Part shown: positions 20,608 through 21,900 of the stretch, piece by piece
How the letters are laid out: each line of letters starts with the position of its first letter
Numbering within the stretch: the first letter of the stretch is position 1
Source of the DNA: a virus
Strand: one strand, 5' to 3'
DNA: 26,299 bases
IMG/VR virus record: IMGVR_UViG_3300028925_004580
Coordinates: 1 to 26,299 of that record
Program-made: the position numbers and the translations under genes
The notes under the pieces: model-generated
The model's input: only the letters and a program-made list of their open reading frames with translations
Databases searched by the model: none
Told to the model about the DNA's origin: nothing

Positions 20608-20748
20608 TTATAGTTCGTCGTCTAAAGTAATTTGTCCTGTCTCGACTAAATGGGCAATAACATCTTCCATACCTTCTTGCTTGCCTAAGTTGTGGCTATG
20701 GTAGCCGCAACCAATCATGCAAAACATAAAAATGGCATACTCAATCAT
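20608..20748 (-). CDS. Small phage protein with hydrophobic N-terminus
   Basis: ATG at 20748, six bases after AAGGA, opens a 46-residue frame starting MIEYAIFMFCMIGCGYHSHN, followed by GKQEGMEDVIAHLVETG and an acidic end. The cysteine- and methionine-rich head could be a short membrane segment or a lipid-anchored leader (I-G-C-G). The pattern 'CGYHSHNLG...G' recurs in phage small proteins of unknown function. It is the first gene after the promoter at 20782-20810, with a leader of about 27 bases. Confidence 0.7.
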   Translation of the reverse strand: MIEYAIFMFCMIGCGYHSHNLGKQEGMEDVIAHLVETGQITLDDEL

Positions 20749-20781: not shown

Positions 20782-20810
20782 ATTATACGTTGAAAACAGC
20801 ACCCTGTCAA
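20782..20810 (-). promoter_or_regulatory. Sigma70-type promoter, minus strand (proximal of a tandem pair)
   Basis: Minus-strand TTGACA (20810-20805), 17-base spacer, TATAAT (20787-20782), with TTATTTAGTTG upstream. Predicted +1 near 20775. It drives the small-gene and lysis unit. Confidence 0.88.
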
Positions 20811-20857: not shown

Positions 20858-20886
20858 ATTATACAGTATTTGCACCAGTTTGTCAA
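20858..20886 (-). promoter_or_regulatory. Sigma70-type promoter, minus strand (distal of a tandem pair)
   Basis: Minus-strand TTGACA (20886-20881), 17-base spacer, TATAAT (20863-20858), preceded by AAAAATTATCC. It lies 76 bases upstream of the proximal promoter. Its transcript could include a 12-codon frame (20845-20807) that ends inside the proximal -35. Confidence 0.82.
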
Positions 20887-20928: not shown

Positions 20929-20957
20929 TTGACAAACTACCTACTTTGGTTTATAAT
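20929..20957 (+). promoter_or_regulatory. Sigma70-type promoter, plus strand, giving a leaderless transcript
   Basis: TTGACA (20929-20934), 17-base spacer, TATAAT (20952-20957), preceded by AAATAATTG. The standard distance puts +1 at 20964, the A of the ATG of the first plus-strand gene. It is divergent from the two promoters at 20782-20886. Confidence 0.87.
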
Positions 20958-20963
20958 ACGCCC

Positions 20964-21134
20964 ATGAAAAAATATAAAAAGAAACCTTGGACAGAACTTG
21001 AGCGCAACACACTGCGGGCATATTACTTCAACGCTAGTATAGATGAAGTGATGGACATGATACCCGACAGAACAGAGCGATCTATCCGTAACCAGGTTTC
21101 CTACCTACGCAAACGAGGAGTACGTTTTAAATGA
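20964..21134 (+). CDS. Small SANT/HTH-like DNA-binding protein, leaderless
   Basis: ATG at 20964 gives a basic 56-residue product starting MKKYKKKPWTELERNTLRAY. It is one Myb/SANT- or HTH-like unit: an aromatic PWTELE lead, three predicted helices (ELERNTLRAYYF; IDEVMDMI; ERSIRNQVSYLRKRG). The pattern W-T-[DE]...R-S-I-R-x-Q-V resembles repeat units of the phage proteins at 13344-14072 and 16595-17035. It is the first plus-strand gene and stands at the divergence point, so a regulator role for the two arms is attractive. There is no Shine-Dalgarno site; the ATG coincides with the predicted +1. A frame-opening TTG at 20946 lies inside the promoter and is rejected. Confidence 0.8.
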   Translation: MKKYKKKPWTELERNTLRAYYFNASIDEVMDMIPDRTERSIRNQVSYLRKRGVRFK

Positions 21135-21223
21135 CAACCCCTGAAATTTACATAGTATGCACAATCCTGATCCTATGGTTGATGATACAAGGCATCGAAG
21201 ATGACGATGATTGGAATGAATAA
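21131..21223 (+). CDS. 30-residue single-pass membrane protein
   Basis: The ATG overlaps the previous stop as ATGA, with GAGGAG further upstream. The product has a hydrophobic helix (IYIVCTILILWLMI) and an acidic tail (GIEDDDDWNE). It stops directly before the S21 ATG (TAAATG). Coupling to both neighbours supports translation. The function is unknown. Confidence 0.6.
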   Translation: MTTPEIYIVCTILILWLMIQGIEDDDDWNE

Positions 21224-21412
21224 ATGCAAGTTAAAGTTAAAAATGGTAATGTTGAAGGGGCACTGCGCCTCTTTCGTAAAAAAGTTACAGAGAGTGGAGT
21301 TCTTTTCAAGCACAAAGAGAAGCAGTTCTACGAAAAACCCTGTCAGAAAAAGAACAGAAGAAAGGCTTCCGCAAAAATGCGAGAAAGAAAAAGACGTACC
21401 ATGGAGCCGTGA
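21224..21412 (+). CDS. rpsU: Phage-encoded small ribosomal subunit protein bS21
   Basis: The 62-residue basic protein matches bacterial S21, which binds the 30S platform near the anti-Shine-Dalgarno end of 16S rRNA and helps initiation. Matching features are the short beta start (MQVKVKNGN), the helix with ALRLFRKKVTESGVL, the invariant FYEKP turn, and the arginine/lysine tail with KASAKMRERKR. E. coli S21 is about 71 residues. Phage S21 homologues are known from pelagiphages and metagenomic phages and are thought to replace the host copy on ribosomes. The ATG follows the preceding stop by no bases. A +1-frame overlapping ORF at 21201-21425 is judged a shadow. Confidence 0.9.
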   Translation: MQVKVKNGNVEGALRLFRKKVTESGVLFKHKEKQFYEKPCQKKNRRKASAKMRERKRRTMEP

Positions 21413-21428
21413 TATACGTTTTTAGTTC

Positions 21429-21457
21429 TTGACATTCGCCTTAAAACGCCGTATAAT
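21429..21457 (+). promoter_or_regulatory. Sigma70-type promoter, plus strand
   Basis: TTGACA (21429-21434), 17-base spacer, TATAAT (21452-21457), preceded by TTTTTAGTTC, the shared extension. Predicted +1 near 21464. It starts the long small-gene unit. Confidence 0.88.
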
Positions 21458-21483: not shown

Positions 21484-21900
21484 TTGATTACATATTATAA
21501 CGAAGACACTAAATTTGACGCATTCATTACAGACTGTTTAAAAGCACTCTTTGATGATGAGCCAACTGCAGATATTGAGATAACCTGGACAAAGTGTATT
21601 GGTGAAGGCTATGCGGGACTATGTAACGGTACTACAGATGAGGTGGAGATTGCACTAGCAACCCACTTCAACCTTGATTGTGGTGAGAGCCTGCCTTATG
21701 GTGACGCAATACTTGCCTCCAACCTAGCACATGAGCTAGTTCACGCTCGTCAGTTTATTCGTGGCGAGATTAACGCAGACAACTACTACTACAAAGGAAA
21801 CGACTACGAGGCTGTTGAGTACGCTGAGACCCCGTGGGAAATTGAAGCATACGCCCTTGAGGATGTACTGGTTGATTTATTTTGGAGTAAAGAATGTTAG
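21484..21900 (+). CDS. Putative zinc metalloprotease-like protein (HExxH)
   Basis: The start is read as TTG at 21484, six bases after GGAGAAG and 20 bases from the predicted +1; a TTG at 21469 forms part of that ribosome site. The 138-residue product has the zincin motif AHELVHARQFIRGE (H83, E84, H87) followed by ETPWEIEAYALED, whose glutamate (E119 or E121) may be the third zinc ligand, as in small minimal gluzincins. The acidic N-terminal half contains a CNGTTDEVEIALAT segment. There is no signal peptide, so the target would be cytoplasmic. It could act on host proteins or be a non-proteolytic zincin fold; the substrate is unknown. Confidence 0.75.
   Translation: MITYYNEDTKFDAFITDCLKALFDDEPTADIEITWTKCIGEGYAGLCNGTTDEVEIALATHFNLDCGESLPYGDAILASNLAHELVHARQFIRGEINADNYYYKGNDYEAVEYAETPWEIEAYALEDVLVDLFWSKEC

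Follow-up and report, generated by a model that had tools for sequence, protein, structure and literature searches.

A ribosomal protein bS21 gene in a predicted leaderless operon of uncultured T5-like phages

On sequence similarity, uncultured phages related to T5 carry a gene for ribosomal protein bS21. It closes a compact operon whose mRNA is predicted to begin at its first AUG. The gene was found in a 26.3-kb virus record (41.6% G+C), analysed over its whole length and referred to below as the window, and in relatives of that record. That a T5-like phage produces a ribosome-directed bS21 from a leaderless, translationally coupled operon is, in our judgment, the probable explanation of the whole. 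Phage-encoded bS21 as such is already known; what is new is the operon setting.

Results

Identity and maintenance of the phage bS21

The bS21 open reading frame (ORF), whose coordinates, strand and length are exact (Table 1), translates as MQVKVKNGNVEGALRLFRKKVTESGVLFKHKEKQFYEKPCQKKNRRKASAKMRERKRRTMEP. This protein matches Pfam PF01165 (Ribosomal_S21) with E=2e-13 and 50.3 bits over profile positions 1-54 of 55, above the curated cut-off of 27 bits, as well as the PHROG ‘ribosomal protein S21’ (7e-12) and the sequences of solved bS21 chains (best 3.6e-8), and is thus not the product of a chance ORF. An AlphaFold model (pLDDT 79, pTM 0.36) places helices at residues 10-24 and 41-60 around FYEKP, and together with the profile matches this upholds an earlier note on the same DNA, which had described a 62-residue phage bS21 with the S21 helices and the FYEKP turn. 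Because a Foldseek search with the model returned only weak matches, all to mitoribosomal chains (E 0.25 or worse; several of them mitochondrial bS21), it is the sequence evidence that carries the assignment to the family. Pairwise dN/dS against close relatives is ~0.04-0.26, indicating strong purifying selection and hence that the protein is maintained. On these matches, the gene is a genuine phage-encoded, rpsU-like bS21.

Compared pairwise over ten contigs, the polymerase has a median identity of 83%, bS21 of 59%, and the HTH protein encoded at the start of the operon of 61%, so that bS21 and the HTH protein change faster than the polymerase. In one relative, L211, YEKP has become YDSP, yet its contig encodes a polymerase with 77% identity to that of the window. 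Given this faster divergence and the loss of YEKP in L211, not every member of the clade need have kept a strictly ribosomal function. A single clade of T5-like bS21 was not rejected (p-AU 0.29), in a tree of few columns that decides little.

A replication-region fragment of a T5-like phage

The window DNA polymerase is 44% identical to Demerecviridae polymerases, and the order of the replication genes (PhoH, helicase, polymerase, primase, DnaB, a D5-like protein and two NAD-ligase genes) is that of Aeromonas phage AhSzw-1. T5-type replication genes, D5 and a two-gene NAD ligase among them, thus stand in T5 order. Outside the window, related contigs that carry the operon (those of L118, L122 and L123) encode a major capsid protein of T5 type, at 31-38% identity. 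By its gene content, the window comes from the replication region of an uncultured T5-like (Demerecviridae-related) phage; a pelagiphage origin is ruled out by the T5-like polymerase and the gene order. A search for end repeats found none.

No near nucleotide match to the first 25 kb of the window was found among cultured phages, nor any match there to the HTH protein of the first cistron. In tblastn searches with three different bS21 proteins of the clade, no T5-like record appeared among the matches listed (for one query, 12 of 33). The bS21 sequence was rejected as a guide to the host: further bacterial bS21 among the matches listed reach no more than 39-44% identity, and the tree is poorly resolved. 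A 77% match in L015, assigned to a ‘Bacteroidetes’ MAG (UBA10340), was considered as a bacterial rpsU, but its 4-kb contig carries the same promoter, HTH gene and bS21; it is probably a phage contig and hence no sound evidence of a host. The matches in Acinetobacter ‘phages’ are neighbors of gcp and yqeY and seem to be chromosomal.

Organization of the bS21 operon and its neighbors

Table 1. Features of the bS21 operon and flanking region (window positions).
Feature	Coordinates	Strand	Remarks
Second divergent consensus promoter	20782..20810	-	Drives SD-led gene at 20608-20748 (-)
Divergent consensus promoter, upstream of operon	20858..20886	-	Consensus match
Sigma-70 consensus promoter TTGACA-17-TATAAT, bS21 operon	20929..20957	+	12/12 bases; conserved in relatives
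First cistron, predicted leaderless, 56-aa DNA-binding protein (MKKYKKKPWTE..)	20964..21134	+	phrog_323, 7.5e-5
Second cistron, 30-aa hydrophobic peptide with acidic tail	21131..21223	+	Start overlaps first-cistron stop (ATGA)
bS21, third and last cistron, 62 aa	21224..21412	+	Start abuts second-cistron stop (TAA/ATG)
Second consensus promoter	21429..21457	+	~20-nt leader with GGAG Shine-Dalgarno (SD); contrasts with leaderless head
HExxH metallopeptidase-like gene, own promoter	21484..21900	+	TTG start; ATG in several relatives

The operon promoter has a 6-nt discriminator, which puts the predicted +1 on the A of the ATG at 20964. The DNA-binding (HTH) protein that starts there resembles part of the T5 D5-like regulators, with a Myb-like Pfam match below cut-off, and its dN/dS is ~0.02-0.18. 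The peptide of the second cistron matched no family in a Pfam profile search; it is conserved at 23-31 amino acids, with a hydrophobic stretch and an acidic end.

The HExxH gene has Peptidase_M91 and SprT-like matches, both below cut-off. Most relatives have it next to the operon, those that lack bS21 among them; it was not seen near L120 or L122. It has been speculated that phages with bS21 may encode a protease against the host bS21 (PMC9976891).

Perfect TTGACA-N17-TATAAT promoters are numerous in the window and in related loci, with 5-15 in related contigs longer than 20 kb, where the reversed pattern gave none; the leaders behind them often open with a similar A/T-rich stretch ahead of the SD. 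Promoter class was rejected as a guide to early or late timing, as related contigs also have consensus promoters close to their terminase and capsid genes.

The earlier note had also pointed to non-standard initiation codons elsewhere in the window. The gene at 19332-18739 (-) does have an ATC start, behind a GGAG-type SD, and at this same position in distinct relatives ATG (12), ATC (10) and TTG (5) alternate; the GTG and TTG starts are likewise present in the window, and ordinary.

The predicted leaderless head is conserved across the clade

Related loci and contigs are denoted by L-numbers; the 30 HTH-bS21 heads counted first below were fetched by protein similarity and not selected for promoter-to-ATG spacing, and it is the spacing in heads so chosen that indicates conservation of the leaderless head across relatives. 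An open-frame ATG follows the -10 box at 4-8 nt in 33 of 169 distinct consensus promoters of the clade. Thirty of these 33 are heads of bS21 operons; the other three, apparent further leaderless starts in L103, L125 and L126, reflect an in-frame ATG that precedes the SD-led one. For most of the remaining 136 perfect promoters the distance to an ATG is 20-40 nt. An ATG at 4-8 nt that opens no frame of at least 25 codons occurs at three more: those of L120 and L122, which head bS21, and one in L108. Spacing between promoter and ATG is 6 nt in 38 of 40 distinct heads, 5 in one and 8 in one, although this set was partly fetched by a pattern requiring a spacing of 6, and the 30 heads are the fairer count.

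With the first ATG at the predicted transcription start in ~30 distinct heads, we infer that the operon mRNA is leaderless. Within the clade, a leaderless head is very nearly confined to the bS21 operon, candidates at other consensus-promoter genes being unconvincing.

The start of bS21 is internal

The earlier note had placed S21 itself in a leaderless unit. This stands for the head of the transcript, whose promoter ends 6 nt before its first ATG, but not for the S21 start codon, which is the internal start of the third cistron. Since the first ATG is that of the DNA-binding protein, initiation of bS21 is internal and probably coupled to the upstream cistrons, rather than leaderless. In 36 loci, each cistron start overlaps the preceding stop or lies within 11 nt of it; for bS21 the distance is at most 5 nt in 31 of them and 9-11 nt in the other five. 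Where the second cistron is missing (L011, L013, L103, L125, L126), bS21 overlaps the stop of the HTH gene.

The SD of bS21 itself is weak in the window (-3.3 kcal/mol). Across the clade its median is -4.2 kcal/mol, between the -6.4 of promoter-proximal genes and the -1.65 of background, and in several relatives the internal start has some SD character.

Heads without bS21, and heads in other viruses

Two relatives, L189 and L190, keep the leaderless HTH gene and the second cistron and lack bS21 at the operon; none was found elsewhere in their contigs, both of which are fragments. The leaderless start is therefore not simply there for S21, and these two loci argue that it may serve the HTH gene by itself. 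IMG/VR was also scanned for a consensus promoter followed by 6 nt and ATGAAAAA. Among the matches listed, bS21 lies within 900 nt in 11 of 124 such heads, including every full-length HTH head of this family, and the remaining heads start unrelated genes. The notion that leaderless starts are unique to bS21 across viruses was dropped accordingly: with most listed heads before unrelated genes, consensus-promoter leaderless heads are not special to bS21, and the pattern suggests that various viruses make use of leaderless messages.

The same loci bear on whether the head has anything to do with bS21. We hold it possible, though doubtful, that the leaderless start serves the DNA-binding protein, as in lambda cI, a known leaderless precedent (named in PMC4965119), and that bS21 only shares the transcript; L189 and L190, in which the head persists with no bS21 found in the contig, and the unrelated genes behind other viral heads would both be expected if this were so. 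Against it, L120 and L122 have no HTH gene at the operon and nevertheless retain an ATG at the predicted 5' end, which there opens a 9-codon ORF directly before bS21 (the L122 contig also carries the T5-type capsid gene), and apart from L189 and L190 the full-length HTH heads of the family, among the matches listed, all have bS21 within 900 nt.

Discussion

The reading that we prefer, a ribosome-directed bS21 made from a leaderless, coupled operon, would work as follows. A host-type consensus promoter would drive a compact operon for a DNA-binding protein, a hydrophobic peptide and, last, bS21; its mRNA would begin at the first AUG, and ribosomes starting there would pass on to bS21 through coupling. 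The phage bS21 would then bind the platform of the host 30S subunit, beside the anti-Shine-Dalgarno tail, and replace or supplement host bS21, adjusting initiation on phage messages, which are mostly SD-led. A leaderless head may open the operon to ribosomes in many states, including those poor in bS21.

By homology, and by analogy with another phage, incorporation of the protein into host 30S subunits is likely, and replacement or supplementation of host bS21 would be its most likely role. E. coli 70S ribosomes take up bS21 from Pelagibacter phage HTVC008M, although with it they had only ~5% activity in vitro (PMC6375957). That ribosomes might in this way be biased towards phage mRNAs, as the earlier note suggested, is a hypothesis; a preference for phage transcripts through phage bS21 has already been proposed for Bacteroidetes phages (PMC9723584).

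A more elaborate circuit, in which ribosomes lacking bS21 prefer the leaderless bS21 operon until, as bS21 fills them, SD-led phage messages gain the upper hand and less bS21 is made, seems to us unlikely. It draws on E. coli 61S ribosomes, which lack bS1, uS2, bS21 and other proteins and translate leaderless mRNAs selectively (PMC4929434, PMC7069363), and on Flavobacterium, where ribosomes lacking bS21 selectively translate rpsU, which is autoregulated via a very strong SD (PMC9976891), and of which the phage circuit would be the mirror image; the near confinement of the head to the bS21 operon within the clade, and its survival in L120 and L122 without the HTH gene, point the same way. However, the absence of bS1 and uS2 as well from 61S particles means that their preference for leaderless mRNA need not be due to bS21 alone, L189 and L190 have the head without bS21, and the start of bS21 is internal and, in several relatives, has some SD character. 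A self-adjusting viral switch for ribosome remodelling, by which bS21-deficient ribosomes would make more bS21 and replete ones would turn to SD-led phage mRNAs, strikes us as quite improbable. A role outside the ribosome, such as binding a partner RNA with no remodelling of ribosomes, is very unlikely: bS21 is reported to belong to the OLE ribonucleoprotein complex (PMC12054373), and the phage protein diverges faster than the polymerase, but the match to the Ribosomal_S21 profile spans almost all of it, ribosomes take up the bS21 of a distant phage (PMC6375957), and an Rfam search of the window matched no RNA family.

The setting of the gene differs from those of the phage bS21 genes already described. 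HTVC008M (Mizuno et al. 2019, PMC6375957) encodes a bS21 of the same Pfam family, 49% identical over 47 residues. In contrast to the window, HTVC008M is a Kyanoviridae myophage whose bS21 has CobS, hypothetical and heat-shock neighbors, and a search of that locus for a consensus leaderless head or an HExxH neighbor found neither. Freshwater Bacteroidetes huge phages (Chen et al. 2022, PMC9723584) also carry a bS21, proposed to replace that of the host; these are myoviruses of 293-331 kb in which the gene is late and lies on the opposite strand among structural genes, whereas the window bS21 is near T5-like replication genes behind a consensus promoter. Cultured T5-like phages (Demerecviridae, such as AhSzw-1) share the replication order and the related polymerase, but no T5-like record was among the bS21 matches listed. 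No earlier report of bS21 in this phage lineage, and no description of a conserved operon with a leaderless start and coupled bS21, was found in the literature searched.

Parallels in initiation come from bacteria and from phage lambda. Flavobacterium johnsoniae rpsU (PMC9976891) is similar in that its initiation signal is unlike that of other genes, and in a possible link between ribosomes lacking bS21 and the synthesis of bS21; it has an extra-strong SD, a feature that the window bS21 lacks, and the phage has instead a leaderless head with coupled cistrons. E. coli mRNAs with a 5'-terminal AUG (PMC4965119) and lambda cI share with the phage operon, by prediction, an AUG at the 5' end, and L120 and L122 resemble the former further in having a 5'-terminal mini-ORF followed by an SD-like signal and the next gene; neither involves a phage bS21 operon, and the transcript ends in the phage are predictions.

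As a small construct (<500 bp), the operon would make any link between bS21 and leaderless and SD-led initiation accessible in a laboratory strain, and it raises a testable question: how do phages control ribosomes that they may be remodelling? If the switch were true, leaderless initiation would achieve in these phages what Flavobacterium rpsU does by an extreme SD.
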